From a virus: 42,529 nucleotides of DNA. This document shows, piece by piece, positions 2,129 through 42,529 of this stretch. The DNA lies in the IMG/VR virus record IMGVR_UViG_3300025872_000106, positions 1 to 42,529 of that record; one strand, given 5' to 3'. The position numbers were made by a program, and so were the translations under genes. The first letter of the stretch is position 1. Each line of letters begins with the position of its first letter. The notes under the pieces are model-generated. The model had not been told where the DNA came from. It did not search any database and worked only from the letters and a program-made list of their open reading frames with translations.

Positions 2129-3754
2129 ATGTTCGACTCAGTAGGATACAACCCCAAGGACTTGGTCTTTGGTGAGAATGGGCGTAAGAAGCTCATCAGT
2201 GGAATCAGCAAGATGGCTCGCGCCGTCAAGAGCACGTTAGGACCCGGAGGAAACACGGTGCTGATTGAATCAGCCACGCATGCGGGTGGTATAACCGTAA
2301 CCAAGGACGGGGTGACCGTGGCAAAGGCCATTGACCTGATGGACCCCTGCGAGAACCTTGCGGTTCGGATGATGAAGGAGGCGGCGGACCGCACGGCGAC
2401 AAGCGCAGGTGACGGGACCACCACGGCCATTGTCCTGACCGAGGCCTTGGTGATGGGTGGACAGGAGCATATCAAGGACCACCACAACCGTACAGAGGTT
2501 TTAAGGCAGATGGTGGACATCAGTGGGAAGGTGGTGGAGAAGGTCAAGAAGAGGAGCAAGAAGCTCTCCAAGGGCATGCTATTGGATGTGGCGACCATTT
2601 CCTCCAACAACGACAAGGACACAGGTAAGATCATTGCCGACGTATACAAGAAGGTGGGCAAGAACGGCATCGTGACGGTTGAGAGGTCTCAGACCACGGA
2701 CACCTACTACGAGACCACCATGGGCTTCAAGGTGGACAAGGGGATGAGCTCTCCATTGTTTGTCAACAACCAAAAGCGTGACGAGTGCATATTCGACGAC
2801 GTGATGGTGTTGGTTGCCGACATGGAGATATCCAACATCCTTCAGATCGAGAGCATCCTTAAGCCCATCATATCGGAGGGTAAGAAGCTGCTCATCATCG
2901 CCCCGTGCTCTGCTAATGTGGTGAACACGCTAGCCGCCAACGTCGTCAAGGGTAACCTGAAGGTATGCGTTGTGCCTCCGCCGAACTTCGGATACAAGCA
3001 ACACGAGCTGATGAAGGACTTGGCCGTAAGCGTGGGTGCCAACTACTTCAGCGACAAGACAGGAGACGACCTGAGCCTTATCAACTACGGCGACTTGGGC
3101 CACGCATCAAAGGTCATCGTAAGCATGGACAGCGCCATCATCATACGCTCTAGCATGCGAGCAGAGCAGAAGAAGATTGACGAGCGGGTGTCCCAACTGT
3201 GGGAGGCTCACGCCTCCTCGACCAAGAAGCCTGAGCGCGACTTTTTGCTTGAGCGCATTGCATCCCTAACGGGTGGTATCGGGGTCATCTATGTGGGTGG
3301 CAACACCGACCTAGAGCAGAAGGAGCTGTACGACCGGGTCGACGACGCGGTATGCGCCGTACGATCGGCCTTGGAGGAGGGCGTAGTGGCAGGCGCAGGC
3401 AAGGCCCTGTATGAGGTCAACGTGCTAGACCTAGTACCGGAGGCGGAGAGTGAGGAACAGATGGCAGCCATGCAAATACTTCAGCATGCCATTGAGGCTC
3501 CACTTACGCAGATATTGGCTAACTCAGGCATGTGCCTGACAAACGTATACAACGGCTCTGAGCCGCTTGGGTATGGGTATAACGTCAAGACGGGTCAGAA
3601 GGGCGACCTCATGGAGATGGGTGTCATTGACCCGTTCAAGGTGACACGCTCGGCCTTAGAGAACGCCGTGAGTGTGGCCGTGACGATTTTGAGCACCAAC
3701 GCCATTGTGACGATGGCAAGAAGTTACGAGGCGACCAATGGCAAGCCTGTTTGA
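2129..3754 (+). CDS. groEL: Phage-encoded chaperonin GroEL (Hsp60)
   Basis: A 541-aa group I chaperonin, close to the usual length of about 545. Diagnostic segments are in order: STLGPGGNTVLI (35-46, nucleotide-binding loop), TKDGVTVAK (58-66), AGDGTTTA (93-100, ATP hydrolysis), LLERIASLTGGIGVIYVGG and RVDDAVCAVRSALEEGVV, where D406 corresponds to the catalytic Asp398 of E. coli GroEL. The apical region is divergent, and the C-terminus ends TNGKPV with no Gly-Met tail, as often seen in phage chaperonins. Such proteins form ATP-driven rings that encapsulate folding clients. It overlaps the next gene by 17 nt, and groES follows closely, so a phage folding machine is likely. A TATCTTTG element lies upstream. 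Confidence 0.96.
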   Translation: MFDSVGYNPKDLVFGENGRKKLISGISKMARAVKSTLGPGGNTVLIESATHAGGITVTKDGVTVAKAIDLMDPCENLAVRMMKEAADRTATSAGDGTTTAIVLTEALVMGGQEHIKDHHNRTEVLRQMVDISGKVVEKVKKRSKKLSKGMLLDVATISSNNDKDTGKIIADVYKKVGKNGIVTVERSQTTDTYYETTMGFKVDKGMSSPLFVNNQKRDECIFDDVMVLVADMEISNILQIESILKPIISEGKKLLIIAPCSANVVNTLAANVVKGNLKVCVVPPPNFGYKQHELMKDLAVSVGANYFSDKTGDDLSLINYGDLGHASKVIVSMDSAIIIRSSMRAEQKKIDERVSQLWEAHASSTKKPERDFLLERIASLTGGIGVIYVGGNTDLEQKELYDRVDDAVCAVRSALEEGVVAGAGKALYEVNVLDLVPEAESEEQMAAMQILQHAIEAPLTQILANSGMCLTNVYNGSEPLGYGYNVKTGQKGDLMEMGVIDPFKVTRSALENAVSVAVTILSTNAIVTMARSYEATNGKPV

Positions 3755-3989
3755 TAGGATACTTGACGCGTACCCTGACCAATGGTTCCTCAGGGCCAAC
3801 GGCTTTGACGAGGCCATCGTCGGGGTCGACGAGACGGGCATGAGGCTTGTGTACTCAGCCAACATCTGTATCGACATACTGATGGATCAGGGGCTAGAGG
3901 AGATGCAGGCGGTGGCATACTTTGAGCAGTACATGTTAAACGCTGAGACGGGTCCTGACGCGCCCGTGTTCATCCAAACCGACTTTTAA
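3738..3989 (+). CDS. Small conserved phage protein between groEL and groES
   Basis: An 83-aa protein starting MASLFDRILDAYPDQW, overlapping the end of groEL by 17 nt and ending 1 nt before groES. Its pattern (FDEAIVGVDETGMRLVYS, ICIDIL, a helix with EEMQAVAYFEQYML, then GPDAPVF) matches a type of small acidic protein I know from many tailed phages, without known function. No catalytic motif is visible. Its place inside the chaperonin operon could mean a folding-related role, but these proteins also occur in phages without GroEL, so co-transcription may be the only link. Confidence 0.75.
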   Translation: MASLFDRILDAYPDQWFLRANGFDEAIVGVDETGMRLVYSANICIDILMDQGLEEMQAVAYFEQYMLNAETGPDAPVFIQTDF

Positions 3990-34307: not shown

Positions 34308-37300
34308 ATGAATCAGAAAGCGCTAGAAGCAGCCTATAGTATGTTCTCCAAGGGAGGATACAATGGAAGTATAGAAGACTTTCAGCAGTTGGTATCTACT
34401 AACCCAAAGGCTCTTGAGCAGGCCCATAGGATTTTCTCTAAGGGAGGATACAATCAAGACATAGAACACTTCAAGGAACTCATCGGTGTAAAAAAAAAGA
34501 GGAAGGGCCTCCCGGCTCCAAGTCCAAGCCAACAGCCAACAGCACAGGCCGCTCCGAGCGTCGCTACGGCATCTCCATCGGCCGCTGCTTCATCGGCATC
34601 ATCTACTCAGCTTAGTACTACAAAACCTCTACCACCTGCCCCATCAAACGAGGAGTTGATTCGTATGTATGGGTCTACTGTAAAGCCTATGACGGCTGAG
34701 CAGATCCGTAACGAGGAAAGGTTTGGGTACATGGGAAGGAGTCCTATGTCTGATGAGATAGCAGCATCAGGAGCTGCTAAGATTATAAAACAAGAGGAGA
34801 AGAAGGCGGCGGAAGAACAGGCCAAAGGACAGGCTGATAAGGCATTGACGTCAGGTGTCGACTTTGACAGGTCTATCAATGAGATTACCCCTGACTTCAT
34901 AAACAGGGATGAAGATGCCGTGGCCTCAGAGCTTCAGAGCATGTTCAAGGACTATGGCTTCACCGTGTCCGAGGCTCAACCCGGATTTGAGGCTATTGAA
35001 ATATCAGCACCGAACCCTCTCGACCCTACAAAGACTGACAAGATAGTTGTCGGAGTGGATTCATTTATGGATGCACAAAACAAGGAGTGGTCAAGGGATA
35101 TATCAAAGTGGATAGGCGCACATAAGCCTGCCATAAAAAAGAAAGAGGAGGAGCTGAACGCATACCAACAGCGCATAAGAAACGACAGGGACCTAGACAA
35201 TGCCAACAAGTCGTTCAATGAGCAGGTAACGTCACTCAACAAGGAATACCAACAGCTCATCCTAGACAAGGCGTCACTCGAGCAGGAGATGAAGGACCTT
35301 ACCGCTGTGCCTATGGATCAGCGTCAATCTCCTGAGTATATAGAAAGAGTAAACGCATTCGAAGCAAAAAGAAATGAACTCCTTAGTAGGTCATCAAAGG
35401 CTGAGGAAAAGCAGAAGCATCTAGAGGGATATGAGAGGGACCTGAGGATTTCCGTTGGAAGGTACGCCACAGCAAAGTCTGAGCAGGGTTTTCTTTTTGG
35501 CCTTGTCAGGAACAACCTGATTCAGGGTGTGGCTAGTATGGACATCGGTGTCATCAAGGCGGGACGTTCACTTAAGTTCGGGGTAGAGGACATCATCGAC
35601 TATGCCACAGGTAACGATGAGACGGTGAGCAGGTACAGGAACACAAACGATGTCTCGTACATGAGAGACTTCGTCATGAAGGCCGTCAAGAATGGCATAG
35701 AGGTCCCCGAAGAGCTTTTGGCCATGACAAAGAATCCTCCCGTCATGGAGGCAGGAGCAGAGGGTGCGATGCTGTCTTACGACCAAAAGATGCGGATATA
35801 TTCTGACGCATTCAAGAATTGGAAGTCTTCCATCGGAGACAAGGACGTAGAAAAAATAAACAACTCACTCCTCAATATAGAGCGATCAAAGTCAGACGCA
35901 CTCTCGCAAAGCGTACAAAGAGGGGCGGACGTTTATAAGTCAGCTGAGACCACTAAAGAATACGAGCAGGCAGGCATCATAAAGCAGTCCATATCAGGAT
36001 TGGCATCATCTGTACCTGCCATGCTGATGGGTTCGGGCAGTGTGCCTGCGTTCTTCCTTCAGGGATACGGGTCTAGCATGCAAGAGATGGAGGGTGACTC
36101 CGACTTCAACGAGGTAAACCCTTACATGAAGGCGGGATTAGCATCGTCTATAGGTATCGTCAACGCGGTGCTAGAGAACTATGGTTTCAGGAACGCCCTG
36201 TCAAAGTCGGGTCTCATCAACAACCTTGCTGCGAAGGCACTGACAAGGGCAGGTAAGACAACGACAGCAACGAGCTTCAAGAACCTTGTCGAGAACGAGG
36301 TCGAGAGTGCCATTGCTAGGGGTCTTTTGACTGTTACCGCTGCAGGTCTTGCTGAATCAGAAACGGGTGCCGCTCAGTATGCTGCCGAGACGGGTATCAA
36401 AGAGCTTTACAATATCGCCAACGAAAAGGACATGTTCGACACCCCTGAGACCGCAAAGGATTTCGCAAAGGAGTTCCTTGTGGCGGGCGTACAGGAGGCT
36501 ATCGGCGGTCATATCATGGGCGTGATGCCTGCTATTGCCACTGCATACTCTAAAAACAACTTCAATGGTGTCAGTGACGACGACGTGCTTACGTTCAGAA
36601 ACATTGCAAACGACACTAGGTATTTTGATGTGTATGCCAACAAGCTTAAGAAAAGTGTTTCCAAGGGTATAATCAGTAGTGAACAGGCCAACAAGAGGAT
36701 AAACGACTACCGCAACGCGGTGTCAATCATGAACTCAATACCTGAGAACATGACACCTGCCCAACAGAGGCAGGCACTTGGCCTCATCTTGGAGCGTAGG
36801 AAGTTGGAGGCAGAGAAGAATGGTAAGGAGCCTTCACTAGTAAAGAAGCAGGCTGCCCGTATTGATGAGATAAATGCCGAGTTGGAAAGTATGTCCGAGA
36901 AGGTTCCGACATATTCCATAGATGGCAAGGAGATGACCCGTTCGGAGTTCGTCAATGCCATCGACAAGATGACCCCTGAGCAGGCTCAGTCGTCCAACAT
37001 ACAGATGACCAACCCTGAGCAGAAGATTGCTGACTTGGTTAAAAAGAAATCACTAAAAAAAGAAGAAGATGCCATTCAAGAGCCAAGCACAGAGGAAGGC
37101 GTGTTACGCGCAGAACAACCCCAAGTGGGATTGCAAGAAGTGGGAGAAGGAGACAAAGGACAAGTCGCTGCCCAAGCGGGTGTCGCTCCTACGCAAGAGG
37201 TCGAGCAAATAACAAAAAATGAGTTCGGTATATCGTCAGGAGCAAAACCTGAAAAGATAATATTCTTGGATGTGGACGGGGTAATAGCTCCGATGGGTCA

Positions 37301-40300
37301 AAATGTATCTCAGGATGCTATAAATGAAGTAAACAGGATCATAGAAGACACTGACGCATATGTTGTCATCAGCTCTTCCCACAGGACAGGAGACCTTAAT
37401 GCAACAAGGGAGCTATTAAAAAGTTATGGCTTCAAGTATTCAGATAGGATCATAGGAGAAACAGCCGACAACAAGACTGAGGAGGGAATTGAGAGGGATG
37501 GTCGTCAACGGGGAAATCTCATTGATGAATGGAGGAAGTCATTTGCCCCTGAAGCAAAGGTTGTTGCTTTGGACGATTCTGTCGGTGCGTTCACTGATGC
37601 ACAAAAGAATGAATACCTAGTAGGCCCCGAGGCGCTTGTTGGCATGACCCCTGACTTGGCCAATAAGGCCATTGAGATGTTGGGTAAGAAGGCTCCTGCC
37701 GTTGCCCCTACCGCAGCCCCTACGGCTAAGGGTGTGTCGATGAAGGACACGGCTGCTGCCGATGAGCTGACGGCAAGGACTCCTGACACCACCAAGGCGA
37801 AGATCATCCGTCAGGCTATGAAGGCTGTCAAGACCGTTCAATCGATGTTCCCTGACTTTGACGTAGTATTGCACGAGGATGAGGCTACGTTCAATCAGGC
37901 TATGGAAGAAGGAAAGAACCCGAGCCTCAGAGGCGAAGGTGGTGCCTTGACTAGGGTCAGGACGGCTGATGGCAAGACTATTGTCAAAATACATATAAAC
38001 CTGAACAAGGCGAGTATCAACACGGTCCCTCACGAGGTGGCACACGCCGTGATGCTCAAGGCATTCGGTGACGACCCCAAGCTTTTCAAGGTGTTCAGGG
38101 ACAGGATCTCAAAGGTGCTGTCTGCGGACAGGAACAAGCAGCTAAGGGACTTTGCAGACCAATACGAGGAGTCAGAGTCATACGAGGAGTTCTTGGTAGA
38201 GTTGGCCGCTGTATTGGTCACCAACAAGGACACGCTCAACAAGGTCACCGTAAGCAAAATCCTTGAGCTTATCAACAAGGTGGTATCAAAGATTACCGGA
38301 GGCGCATTTGTTCCGTTCAAGTCCATATCAGAGGCGACGGCTACCAATGACCTTGTCGACTTCTTCAACAGCATGTCAAAGTCTATTGCTGCGGGTGAGG
38401 CTGTAGAGGTTACCGAGAAAGGCAAAGTTAAGATTGCCGAAGGAGTGGTATCGAAGGGCCAAAGAATTTCCGCTAAGGATGTATTGTCAGTAGAGCCTTT
38501 GGGGAAAAAGGAAAAGAAGTCCGTAGTAGAGGTGGCTTCTGCAATGGAAAAGGCGGTAGATATAATTCTGTCACCATCGTCTCCTTCAGAAGAAAGGATT
38601 CAGAGATTCCTGATAAACTCATACAACGACCTAAGGTATTTCTTCAATGATTATAAAGGTGATACGGGATTAGATTGGTATACGAATAAAGTAAAGGAAT
38701 TTGATGCCAAACTGAAAGAGATATCCGATATAGCTATCAAGAACGGAGAGATGTCTGAGGCAAACTCATTGAACGATCCTGAAAATATGGATTTGTTTAG
38801 AGTGGTATTGGCCCTTTCTTCCATAGGTATAAATCCTAGAGAGAATGTAAAGGCTGCCTTTTCTATTTGGAAGACATACAACAGAGAGACGGGTCAATTC
38901 GAAAAATACCAACCGGGTCAGGTGTCTGTAAGGACAAAATTGAAAGACAAAAAAGGAGAGTATTTTGCTCCTTCGGGAACTATCGTAAAAGAGACAAAGG
39001 CCGCTTATGACATAAAGCAGAAAAATGGGAAAATAATAAGAGTCAAAAAGTCAGACCTTACTCCGGGGTACAACGTAACATACGAGGAGGTAAATAGTAA
39101 AGGAAAGAAAGAGGAGAAGACAAAAGAGCTGAAGCTGATAAAGAAAAGCTCTACCAACTACATATTCAAAAAGGGCAATGGTGTTTTGAAAATACCAATT
39201 GCGGATGTCCTTAATATGGAGCAGGTAGATAATGGATTGGTTGGAAAGGGTTGGACCGTAAAAGGGAATGTTATCGCCATAAACCTAGACAGGCTAGAGT
39301 CTTTGATATCGGATCAGGGTGGTGTAAAAAATGCCATCAAGTGGCTTAATAGCAAACACCCTATATCTGAACTCAGAAAATACAATGAAGGTCTTCCTGA
39401 TGCCAATGGAAGCAAAGCAAAAAAGAATCCTGTCGGTGAAAGATTTGGGTCTTATATCATAGGAGAAAAGCTAGGTGCATTCCACCAAAATGTAGCGGGA
39501 ACTCCTACTGAACTTACCATGGACCTTTGGTGGAGCAGGACTTGGAATAGGTATATGGGAACCCTTATGACCATAGATGAGAAAGGGAAACCTGATATTC
39601 AAGAAACCCCTAGAACAGACGCAGAAAGGGCTGTAATGAGAGAGGCGGCTCAGATAGCTGCCAATTCATTGGGTTTAGAGGTTCATGAATTACAGGCGGC
39701 TTTATGGTATTTGGAACAGCAGATGTATAAAAGGATGGGTGCTGCTGTAGAGTCGTATTCTTTTGTAGACGGTGCAAATCAATTACTTTTACAATATGGA
39801 AAATCAGAAGAAGAAATACAACCTGAGCGATATGGAATCAGTAGCTCAGAAGTTGATAGAAGAAGGGCGGATGCCGCAGCCCGAGCAACTTCTATCGTCC
39901 TTGGAGAAGGCGGCGAATTTCGCGAAGAAATCGTTACCAAAGGTAGAAGAAGTGGAGACGGAAGAAGGATCGGAGCGTTACGAAGCCTTGCGCCGCTTGA
40001 AGGTGCGCCAATTGTCAAAGGGGCGACAGGGCCCGACCCCGAAATCGTAGCCATAGCAGAGAAGTATGCCAAGGATAATGGCATAGACCTGAAAAGGCAA
40101 TCTGAGTACGTAAGTGTCGACGAGGACTTTGCTAGAGAATTAGCAAAGGCTTATGAAGAAATGAAACATGACCCTAAGAATCCTAGGGTAAGAGAGGCGT
40201 ACAATGACTTGATATCGCAAACCAAAAAGCAGTATGATGCTTTGGTTGAGGCAGGTTATGAGTTCACCTTCTTTGACTCCAAAACAGATCCGTATGACGG

Positions 40301-42529
40301 AAAACCTTGGAGAGCTATAAGGGATTTACGAAACAATAAAAAGATGGCTGTATACGGAACCTACGATGGTTTCGGTACGGAGGGATTGACAGATAAGGCC
40401 GTAGAGGATAATCCTATGTTGCAAGACACAGGGTTGGTATGGAAGGATCAGAACGGAAAGGATCATGCTGTTACTGCCAACGATTTGTTCAGGGCTGTTC
40501 ATGATGCCTTTGGCCATGGCATGGAAGGTTCAGGATTCAGGGCAAGAGGTGAGGAGAATGCTTGGCAGGCTCACGTAAGATTGTTTACGGGTCCTGCTAT
40601 AGCGGCCATTACCACTGAGACACGAGGCCAAAACTCATGGCTTAACTATGGTCCTTATGGTGATCAGAATCAATCAGCAAAGGTAGAAGACACCGTATTC
40701 GCTCAACAGAAAACAGGTCTTCTTCCTGAATGGGCTTGGACTGAGAACAGGGCGGGCGATCAGGCCGAACCCGAAATCGTAACCAAAGGCAGGAAAGCTG
40801 AGAAGCCGTCAGAGGCTAACATGCCCGGATATGACGCCACCATGCAGAAGGTCGGTGGTATCATAGCCAAGACCGTAGAAAGGGGAGGAACCAAGGAGCA
40901 GGCGTTTGACAACGTCATGAGATACCTTGAAAAGTCAAAGCTGTACACGGACGCTACTGACGTTCAGCGTGAGCAGTTGGTACGTGACATCCGTGACAGG
41001 TTCTATGAAAAGGAAAAGGCTGCACCTAGCGTGAAGAAGATCCTTGGCATCAAGGACACCAAGAAGGTCACCATGTCTGAGAAGGAGGCCCTCAAGAAGA
41101 GGCTGACTGACGAGGCTAGGGGTGCAAGGAACGCTGCCTCCGCAATCAAGAAGTCATACGTTGCCATTGCCGAGGAGCTTAACGAGATGGTTAAGTCGGG
41201 AAAAATCTCCCTGCGTCAGATGAACGCTATAATGAACAGGTTCGCCAAACTGAAGGTACTCGACGAGGCTTCCGTGTCCAACTTCGTCGACTATATGGCC
41301 AACGTGATGGAGGACGCTGAGTACATGGAAACAATCGCATCCATCAAGAAGATGATCCCTACAGCAAAGAAAAACGTAGCCGTCAAGCTAGGGATAGCAG
41401 AAGGCTTGGTTCCTAACCTTCAGAGGATGCTGAACCTGAACCCTGAGTTTATTCCCGCAGAGGTGTTCAACACCTACATGCAACTCGTTCAGATGGTAGG
41501 AAAGCGCGAGAAGGTCCTCACGTTGGATGAGATAAACAAGGTCACCGACATGGCCTCCGAGGTCATGGACGCAGTCGATAAGAAGTTCTCCGTACTCGAC
41601 GACCTGTACGACAGGTTCATCAACACGTCAAACGTGGTGTTCAACAAGGAAGGGAAGTTGGACTACGCTGAAACGCTCAAGGCCATGGAGAGGGCAGGTG
41701 AGATAAGTGCCGACGAGCGTGACATGATGAACGAGAACAAGTCCAAGATATACTCCGAGAAGAGGGGTCCTACGGACCTGATGATAAACTCTATGGTGTC
41801 AAGACTCGTCAATGATGGTCAGAGCATGTCAGAGGCGGTGGCAAACGCCGCGTCCACGCTAGGCATATCAGAGGATGACGTGAATCAGGCCCTTCAGAAC
41901 GTAGAGAACGAGCGTCAGGACCTTATAGGAGTTGTCTATTCGTCATCTGTCGACATAGACCCTGAGGTGTTCCCGACGGAGGATGAGCGTGTGTTGGCTA
42001 GGAAGTTAAAGAAGTTACTATCATCTGATGCGGTCGAGTCCATGAGCCTCAATGACCTTCGCAACATCGTCAAGATGATTGACAACATGAAGAACGGCTA
42101 CATCTCCAACTTCGCGGAGGTCATGGAGAACAGGCTTCAGAAGACGTTCGATGCAATGGACGTTCTGACATCTGCCGTTAAGGCCAATCCGATGGTTGTA
42201 TCAAAGATGATTGCCAAGCTCAAGACGTTCTTCAAGAGGGGAGAGAACTACATCGAAGAGATAACAAAGAGGGGTATCAACTACTACATCGACCAATCTC
42301 TCGGAGATTTCAAGACCAAGCGAGTGTTCAACGCCCTATTCGAAAGGTCCGCTGAGGGATTGGCTCGTTTTGAAAGCGAGTTAAACAGGATCACAAGCAT
42401 CCTAGACAAGGCTCAGGAACGTATCGCAAAATCCCATGGCCTGAACCACAACGCCATCGTAAAGGCCAAGATGAGGATGATGGCGTACATGCTTCAGAAG
42501 GAATACGAAACAAATGAGGGAGCAAATGT
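34308..42529 (+). CDS. Giant polyvalent virion protein, partial (HAD + metallopeptidase)
   Basis: ATG 34308 opens a frame that stays open for 2740 codons to the window end. In order: a twice-repeated FSKGGYN-x-x-I-E-x-F unit (13-29, 43-59); a Pro/Ala/Ser linker; coiled coils; a hydrophobic stretch near 570-640 (SSVPAMLMGSGSVPAFFLQG); a HAD domain with D988-V-D990, SSSHR (1022-1026) and D1089-D1090, like the HAD domain of RNA-repair 'Swiss army knife' proteins; a zinc metallopeptidase domain with HEVAH (1242-1246) and a later EEFLVELAA; a conserved domain (about 1900-2150) with H2065-D-A-F-G-H2070; and long helices to the end. This matches the polyvalent proteins that phages inject. It is probably an ejected protein acting on host targets. 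Confidence 0.82.
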   Translation, partial: MNQKALEAAYSMFSKGGYNGSIEDFQQLVSTNPKALEQAHRIFSKGGYNQDIEHFKELIGVKKKRKGLPAPSPSQQPTAQAAPSVATASPSAAASSASSTQLSTTKPLPPAPSNEELIRMYGSTVKPMTAEQIRNEERFGYMGRSPMSDEIAASGAAKIIKQEEKKAAEEQAKGQADKALTSGVDFDRSINEITPDFINRDEDAVASELQSMFKDYGFTVSEAQPGFEAIEISAPNPLDPTKTDKIVVGVDSFMDAQNKEWSRDISKWIGAHKPAIKKKEEELNAYQQRIRNDRDLDNANKSFNEQVTSLNKEYQQLILDKASLEQEMKDLTAVPMDQRQSPEYIERVNAFEAKRNELLSRSSKAEEKQKHLEGYERDLRISVGRYATAKSEQGFLFGLVRNNLIQGVASMDIGVIKAGRSLKFGVEDIIDYATGNDETVSRYRNTNDVSYMRDFVMKAVKNGIEVPEELLAMTKNPPVMEAGAEGAMLSYDQKMRIYSDAFKNWKSSIGDKDVEKINNSLLNIERSKSDALSQSVQRGADVYKSAETTKEYEQAGIIKQSISGLASSVPAMLMGSGSVPAFFLQGYGSSMQEMEGDSDFNEVNPYMKAGLASSIGIVNAVLENYGFRNALSKSGLINNLAAKALTRAGKTTTATSFKNLVENEVESAIARGLLTVTAAGLAESETGAAQYAAETGIKELYNIANEKDMFDTPETAKDFAKEFLVAGVQEAIGGHIMGVMPAIATAYSKNNFNGVSDDDVLTFRNIANDTRYFDVYANKLKKSVSKGIISSEQANKRINDYRNAVSIMNSIPENMTPAQQRQALGLILERRKLEAEKNGKEPSLVKKQAARIDEINAELESMSEKVPTYSIDGKEMTRSEFVNAIDKMTPEQAQSSNIQMTNPEQKIADLVKKKSLKKEEDAIQEPSTEEGVLRAEQPQVGLQEVGEGDKGQVAAQAGVAPTQEVEQITKNEFGISSGAKPEKIIFLDVDGVIAPMGQNVSQDAINEVNRIIEDTDAYVVISSSHRTGDLNATRELLKSYGFKYSDRIIGETADNKTEEGIERDGRQRGNLIDEWRKSFAPEAKVVALDDSVGAFTDAQKNEYLVGPEALVGMTPDLANKAIEMLGKKAPAVAPTAAPTAKGVSMKDTAAADELTARTPDTTKAKIIRQAMKAVKTVQSMFPDFDVVLHEDEATFNQAMEEGKNPSLRGEGGALTRVRTADGKTIVKIHINLNKASINTVPHEVAHAVMLKAFGDDPKLFKVFRDRISKVLSADRNKQLRDFADQYEESESYEEFLVELAAVLVTNKDTLNKVTVSKILELINKVVSKITGGAFVPFKSISEATATNDLVDFFNSMSKSIAAGEAVEVTEKGKVKIAEGVVSKGQRISAKDVLSVEPLGKKEKKSVVEVASAMEKAVDIILSPSSPSEERIQRFLINSYNDLRYFFNDYKGDTGLDWYTNKVKEFDAKLKEISDIAIKNGEMSEANSLNDPENMDLFRVVLALSSIGINPRENVKAAFSIWKTYNRETGQFEKYQPGQVSVRTKLKDKKGEYFAPSGTIVKETKAAYDIKQKNGKIIRVKKSDLTPGYNVTYEEVNSKGKKEEKTKELKLIKKSSTNYIFKKGNGVLKIPIADVLNMEQVDNGLVGKGWTVKGNVIAINLDRLESLISDQGGVKNAIKWLNSKHPISELRKYNEGLPDANGSKAKKNPVGERFGSYIIGEKLGAFHQNVAGTPTELTMDLWWSRTWNRYMGTLMTIDEKGKPDIQETPRTDAERAVMREAAQIAANSLGLEVHELQAALWYLEQQMYKRMGAAVESYSFVDGANQLLLQYGKSEEEIQPERYGISSSEVDRRRADAAARATSIVLGEGGEFREEIVTKGRRSGDGRRIGALRSLAPLEGAPIVKGATGPDPEIVAIAEKYAKDNGIDLKRQSEYVSVDEDFARELAKAYEEMKHDPKNPRVREAYNDLISQTKKQYDALVEAGYEFTFFDSKTDPYDGKPWRAIRDLRNNKKMAVYGTYDGFGTEGLTDKAVEDNPMLQDTGLVWKDQNGKDHAVTANDLFRAVHDAFGHGMEGSGFRARGEENAWQAHVRLFTGPAIAAITTETRGQNSWLNYGPYGDQNQSAKVEDTVFAQQKTGLLPEWAWTENRAGDQAEPEIVTKGRKAEKPSEANMPGYDATMQKVGGIIAKTVERGGTKEQAFDNVMRYLEKSKLYTDATDVQREQLVRDIRDRFYEKEKAAPSVKKILGIKDTKKVTMSEKEALKKRLTDEARGARNAASAIKKSYVAIAEELNEMVKSGKISLRQMNAIMNRFAKLKVLDEASVSNFVDYMANVMEDAEYMETIASIKKMIPTAKKNVAVKLGIAEGLVPNLQRMLNLNPEFIPAEVFNTYMQLVQMVGKREKVLTLDEINKVTDMASEVMDAVDKKFSVLDDLYDRFINTSNVVFNKEGKLDYAETLKAMERAGEISADERDMMNENKSKIYSEKRGPTDLMINSMVSRLVNDGQSMSEAVANAASTLGISEDDVNQALQNVENERQDLIGVVYSSSVDIDPEVFPTEDERVLARKLKKLLSSDAVESMSLNDLRNIVKMIDNMKNGYISNFAEVMENRLQKTFDAMDVLTSAVKANPMVVSKMIAKLKTFFKRGENYIEEITKRGINYYIDQSLGDFKTKRVFNALFERSAEGLARFESELNRITSILDKAQERIAKSHGLNHNAIVKAKMRMMAYMLQKEYETNEGAN
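39796..40050 (+). CDS. Possible overprinted small gene inside the giant ORF
   Basis: In the +1 frame relative to the giant gene, ATG 39796 opens 84 codons (a GTG at 39772 would add eight). The product, MENQKKKYNLSDMESVAQKL, then IEEGRMPQPEQLLSSLEKAA, looks like an ordinary helical phage protein and uses codons common in this genome (AAG, CAG, GAG, TTG). The main frame here reads as an Arg/Ala-rich interdomain linker (SEVDRRRADAAARATS). Overprinting often arises in such linkers. No promoter or ribosome site is evident, and other chance frames of similar length exist on this strand (for example 29859-30149), so this is tentative. Confidence 0.3.
   Translation: MENQKKKYNLSDMESVAQKLIEEGRMPQPEQLLSSLEKAANFAKKSLPKVEEVETEEGSERYEALRRLKVRQLSKGRQGPTPKS

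Follow-up and report, generated by a model that had tools for sequence, protein, structure and literature searches.

An HDxFGH domain of giant phage proteins with relatives in scattered bacteria is a candidate metal-dependent enzyme of early infection

Our analysis points to a small-molecule enzyme, probably metal-dependent and deployed early in infection, as the function of a conserved domain with the motif HDxFGH in a giant phage protein. We give this reading a probability of roughly 0.5, a figure that leaves the substrate class aside. The protein is encoded in a stretch of 42,529 nucleotides (the window), an IMG/VR virus record whose genes include those for GroEL, terminase, portal, and virion structural proteins. 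Relatives of the domain are found in hundreds of phages and, sparsely, in bacteria.

Results

The phage-encoded GroEL lies at 2129-3754 of the window (phrog_5725, E = 1e-126) and is directly followed by a small ORF (3738-3989), which we take to be a candidate co-chaperonin gene. The giant ORF (34308..42527, plus strand) comes after the portal gene and other virion genes; it is the last reading frame in the window and is cut by the contig end, so that 2740 codons, and thus at least 2740 amino acids, is a minimum length. As is characteristic of polyvalent proteins, it is very large and combines several unrelated domains, i.e., a HAD_SAK_2 domain (PF18143; 37257..37652, plus strand; E = 1.6e-16, 61.3 bits against a cut-off of 27.5), the HDxFGH domain, and a weak match to DUF7178. 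At residue 1242 (38031..38045, plus strand), it has HEVAH, a zincin-like metallopeptidase motif, which is present as a motif only, with no Pfam peptidase match. The HDxFGH domain is bracketed by an identical hexapeptide, IVTKGR, on its left at residue 1875 (39930..39947, plus strand) and on its right at residue 2157 (40776..40793, plus strand); a third linker copy, VVSKGQ, is located at residue 1380 (38445..38462, plus strand), and the linker pattern is [IV]V[TS]KG[RQ]. Other phages have repeated linkers of their own, such as RYSPGR (five copies in phage L239) and RAAVGR (three copies in phage L188). Of 121 giant ORFs, 22 have repeated hexapeptides close to the HDxFGH domain, compared to 8.8 expected under random placement with kinship ignored. 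The repeated linkers are candidate self-processing sites of the giant proteins. Polyvalent proteins are described as transferred multidomain effectors that are probably cut by their own metallopeptidase (PMC5512222), and the HEVAH motif together with the repeated linkers fits this cleavage picture. The giant multidomain architecture, the HEXXH peptidase motif, and the unassigned enzyme-like domains are all reminiscent of the polyvalent proteins and their LPD domains (PMC5512222), but the HDxFGH domain matches no Pfam LPD model at E ≤ 1.

The HDxFGH domain comprises residues 1902-2152 (40011..40763, plus strand), as seen from the profile match, alignment A2, and the AlphaFold2 model. The initial annotation had placed a conserved domain with HDAFGH at about residues 1900 to 2150, and its frame, coordinates, and residues proved exact. 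In an alignment of 111 members with 24 to 75% identity to the window domain, H2065, D2066, and H2070 of the HDAFGH motif (residues 2065-2070; 40500..40517, plus strand) are invariant in 111 of 111 members. Downstream of this motif, the giant ORF has RGEENAWQAH and then AAITTETRGQNSWLNYGP; E2082 of GEEN (40551..40553, plus strand), H2089 of WQAH (40572..40574, plus strand), and Q2108 (40629..40631, plus strand) are likewise invariant (111/111 each), as are an N, an F, an R, a V, and a G. E2104 of TTETRGQ (40617..40619, plus strand), the candidate carboxylate ligand, is Glu in 110 of 111 members, and its distance of 34 residues from the second His (H2070) is the one given in the initial annotation. 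The sole exception at E2104 is a Gly in phage L018 (6037-6858; TGTRGQ instead of TETRGQ), possibly a natural loss of function or a sequencing error. In the T7-like early proteins described below, a Glu is aligned with E2082 and mostly Asp or Glu with E2104, and H2089 is lost. Since the ORF is open over at least 2740 codons, the relatives number in the hundreds, and these residues are invariant, the domain is not a product of chance.

AlphaFold2 modeled the window domain with a pLDDT of 95.5 and a solo relative from Streptomyces with a pLDDT of 94.7 (pTM 0.92 for both). The models run from two long helices through a strand, a helix, a strand, and a hairpin to three helices, and these last three consecutive helices bear HDAFGH, GE...H, and TE..Q, respectively. 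An enzyme would be expected to show such a pattern, in which consecutive helices, three in number, present three unchanging His together with two Glu, one Asp, and one Gln, and we consider the domain likely to be catalytic. The combination of H-x3/4-H with a carboxylate makes a putative metal site, and metal dependence is probable, although less so than catalysis as such.

Foldseek against the PDB gave no match at E ≤ 0.001 for either the window or the Streptomyces model, and VIA-align gave no chain with Z ≥ 2 among the 996 and 35 chains tried with the two models. According to the notes of the tool, a wholly empty VIA-align result is unusual, and we therefore take it to mean that no solved relative turned up, which falls short of proving that the fold is new. 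Judged from the models, the fold of the domain likely lacks a solved structure. Among predicted viral structures, there were 21 matches at E ≤ 0.001, with a small protein of Pseudomonas phage LKA1 and other small phage proteins ranking lower.

Does the motif reflect kinship with the aromatic amino acid hydroxylases (PF00351), as the initial annotation had suggested from the iron site of these enzymes? The likeness is real as far as the motif goes: bacterial hydroxylases have HDVFGH, HDLFGH, HDIFGH, or a similar sequence, and in both families a Glu follows. It ends with the spacing, which is 33 to 35 residues from the second His to the Glu in the domain family but 40 to 43 in the bacterial hydroxylases measured; flanking sequence and fold differ as well. 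PF00351 gave no match to the window domain at E ≤ 1 or to eight bacterial members at E ≤ 5. The domain does not have the full signature PDxxH[DE]xxGHxP: HDxFGH is there, but it is preceded by NDxFRxV in place of the PDxxH lead, and the xP with the proline of GHxP does not come after it. In HHalign against 57 bacterial hydroxylases, a probability of 26 to 34% was carried by the motif and fell to 0.2% when the motif was masked. The fold comparison proposed in the initial annotation likewise came out negative, with no solved-fold match for two models of pLDDT around 95. Human tryptophan hydroxylase 2 was indeed the first of only five weak Foldseek matches to the Streptomyces model, but with an E value of 4.8, a probability of 0.01, and a TM score of 0.15, and the tryptophan hydroxylase chain 9hb7_B aligned with Z under 2 in VIA-align, as did every chain tried. 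A divergent aromatic amino acid hydroxylase, i.e., a pterin-dependent nonheme iron enzyme, would account for the identical HD-x-F-G-H motif, and the order of helices and strands in these hydroxylases is presumably similar to that of the domain model. However, the probable remote relatives among T7-like early proteins have HDxGH with H-x3-H, and together with the spacing, the missing signature elements, and the profile and fold results, this makes such an enzyme highly improbable. Hydroxylase kinship was rejected on the PF00351 scans, HHalign against the 57 hydroxylases, motif masking, and the two fold searches, and we treat the shared HDxFGH as convergence.

A profile scan found relatives of the domain in at least 591 viral contigs (308 in a single-sequence scan). 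A relative is also encoded in 200 of 50,697 phage records, and bacterial or archaeal contigs contain 106 such stretches. Among sampled genomes, the domain occurs in 2 of 246 of the Streptomyces phylum and in 3 of 299 of the Enterovibrio phylum, with seed genomes contained in both samples, and from these counts it is sparse in bacteria and probably encoded by a mobile gene. The initial annotation had described the domain as one of large phage proteins without assigned function, which agrees with a match to phrog_3170 ("unknown function"; E = 1.9e-13) and with the lack of any Pfam or NCBIfam model above cut-off, both for the window domain and for eight relatives from bacteria; a profile search of PDB sequences found no relative either. 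Mycobacterium phage Sebata gp107, a member of phrog_3170, has N-D-x-F-R-A-V-H-D-x-F-G-H, GE, E, and QK all present. Unlike the window domain, which is a cassette in a giant protein, phrog_3170 in mycobacteriophages is a solo gene of 433 amino acids, and a solo form of 188 amino acids is found in Streptomyces phage Dagobah, near the terminal repeat and among small genes. Actinobacterial fusion proteins (L129, L131, L135, and L140; plasmids NC_009453 and NZ_CP064874) combine a separate N-terminal domain with a variant form of the HDxFGH domain, HD..AH (HDALAH or HDAIAH).

The low-ranking matches among the predicted viral structures led to the family of LKA1 ORF7, which is present in 123 phage records, mostly of Pseudomonas phages; those opened are T7-like. 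Sixty of the 123 records were listed, and in about 38 of them the gene is located in the initial 2.6 kb. In Pf-10, it heads the genes that follow the sigma70 promoters, and in phi15 it is the second ORF. An unannotated member was also seen near the genome end of Gordonia phage Yvonnetastic (L337, 939-1292). HHalign of this family against the HDxFGH domain gave 95 to 96% probability (E = 6e-8 to 9e-9). With FRxxHDxxH masked, the probability fell to 5%, and the register remained unchanged over 89 columns (P = 0.008, versus 0.02 to 0.15 for three unrelated alignments). The two families share N..FR..HD.(x)GH, E, and D/E-T-x-x-Q in register but differ in that the LKA1 ORF7 proteins have 150 to 190 amino acids, H-x3-H in place of H-x4-H, and no counterpart of H2089; as far as the sequences tell, they are probably homologous.

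The gene for the SAM lyase of phage T3, gene 0.3 (PMC7877911, PMC8406200), is found in a place comparable to that of the LKA1 ORF7-family gene in T7-like genomes. In this early position, and possibly in its role, the T3 enzyme (PF23780) is like the LKA1 ORF7 family, but sequence similarity is absent (HHalign 0.2 to 0.5%). The early position in T7-like genomes, the location near the terminal repeat in Dagobah, and the occurrence in giant proteins encoded among virion genes would suit action on a host metabolite at the start of infection, and we give early action of the domain in phages slightly better than even odds. The early position would also suit a protein that, like other early T7-like proteins, is directed at a protein of the host such as RNA polymerase or a defense factor. 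However, the solo bacterial relatives are located in apparent small-molecule clusters, and a host protein as the target is quite unlikely.

Following Pfam scans of example loci, these bacterial gene neighborhoods were counted in a single phmmer screen that covered every locus. They fall into about three independent settings, as judged from the clade pattern of a quick tree in which the first and the third are each one clade and the second is nearly so. In the first, the domain gene adjoins a gene for an S-adenosylhomocysteine hydrolase (AHCY)-like NAD-binding protein in 11 loci of Bacteroidota, Gammaproteobacteria, and Alphaproteobacteria, 10 of which also have DUF3293. The AHCY-like protein, the domain gene, and DUF3293 form a conserved trio (L123-L128, L130, L132, and L138). 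The second comprises 14 loci (Actinomycetota, Paraburkholderia, and a gammaproteobacterium) that encode a SufS-like aminotransferase; most of them also have a gene for a Cys/Met PLP enzyme, many have genes for a homocysteine S-methyltransferase and a methyltransferase, and six have a true AHCY and an MFS transporter in addition. L158, L152, L154, L161, L173, and L151, from Actinomycetota and Proteobacteria, have a common cluster of SufS-like, methyltransferase, Cys/Met PLP, homocysteine methyltransferase, AHCY, and MFS genes. In the third, a DNA N6-methylase gene is divergently adjacent in 15 loci of Micromonosporaceae, which count as one observation because they form a single clade. Literature searches on the bacterial gene cluster returned nothing usable.

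All three settings touch S-adenosylmethionine or sulfur amino acids. The occurrence of solo bacterial relatives in clusters of the S-adenosylmethionine/homocysteine type makes an adenosyl- or sulfur-amino-acid metabolite the most likely class of substrate, an assignment that we nevertheless regard as tentative and would not call probable. A direct role of S-adenosylhomocysteine is weakened by the AHCY-like partner of the DUF3293 type, which departs from AHCY at putatively catalytic motifs. Of 48 phage records that carry the domain, only 1 has DUF3293, and therefore, this pairing is not general in phages. SAM-lyase kinship was considered for DUF3293 and for a Microbacterium N-terminal domain on account of weak PF23780 matches (E = 0.002 to 0.005), and was rejected when these failed in HHalign against T3 gene 0.3. 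DUF3293 itself had no profile similarity to the T3 SAM lyase (HHalign 3%), and identity of the Microbacterium N-terminal domain with DUF3293 was not supported (HHalign 12%).

The phage neighborhoods point toward a different chemistry. A DUF7178-like domain is located just upstream of the HDxFGH domain in the giant protein (39387..39710, plus strand; PF23802 at 17.1 bits, below the 27-bit cut-off; phrog_3842, E = 4e-4). Counted only among records carrying the HDxFGH domain, DUF7178 is present in 22 of 48 phage records. It is in the same ORF in 14 giant proteins with measured spacing, in the window (weakly), and in gp205 of Rhodococcus phage E3; in Sebata and Skog it is a neighboring gene, and in Dagobah it is elsewhere in the genome. 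One could imagine that the two domains jointly modify nucleotides or DNA, for example, in DNA hypermodification or nucleotide scavenging. By eye, DUF7178 resembles helix-hairpin-helix DNA glycosylases, and the annotation of Skog calls both genes glycosylase. However, a PDB profile search gave no match for DUF7178, and the glycosylase resemblance was not confirmed; DUF7178 may simply be frequent in giant phage proteins; and in bacteria, DUF7178 is absent from 18 of the 20 genomes that have the HDxFGH domain and present in 2, in one of them within a giant ORF. A nucleotide- or DNA-modifying activity is thus unlikely, if less so than a host-protein target. The literature searched yielded no paper naming DUF3293 or DUF7178.

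Discussion

The broader proposal of the initial annotation, that of a possibly metal-dependent enzyme with a role in infection, is plausible. In our model, the metal would be held by H2065, H2070, and E2104, with E2082, H2089, D2066, and Q2108 around it. Phages have the domain in several forms, i.e., inserted as a movable cassette into giant proteins that are encoded among the virion genes, as solo genes of actinophages, and, as a probable remote form, as an early gene of T7-like phages.

The place of the window gene after the virion genes and the label "structural protein" that the E3 homolog gp205 has in GenBank fit a delivery of the domain into the host. The same two observations would also fit a structural or packaging element of the virion without catalysis. 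However, such an element would hardly explain the invariant His, Glu, Asp, and Gln, the solo relatives in bacterial metabolic clusters, or the solo form of 188 amino acids in Dagobah, and we consider it very unlikely. Literature searches on virion proteomics of E3 or Bxz1 gave nothing usable.

If the enzyme is indeed directed at an adenosyl- or sulfur-containing metabolite, the phage could thereby disturb methylation or methylation-dependent defense. It is imaginable that T7-like early genes, virion-made giant proteins, and bacterial adenosyl-sulfur clusters have in common one superfamily with a new fold, which would alter the S-adenosylmethionine/homocysteine pool at entry as an independent counterpart of the T3 SAM lyase; taken as a whole, this idea is a long shot.

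Hundreds of phages and some scattered bacteria have this domain, which retains about ten invariant residues and is without a Pfam or NCBIfam name. This unnamed, enzyme-like family now has phage and bacterial contexts in which it can be tested, namely, the 160-amino-acid early protein of T7-like Pseudomonas phages (a probable remote homolog), the 188-amino-acid solo form of a Streptomyces phage, and the bacterial clusters, in which the accompanying enzymes give hints about the substrate. Should phages use it as a weapon against the metabolism of the host, this would explain an early gene that is present in more than 100 phage records.
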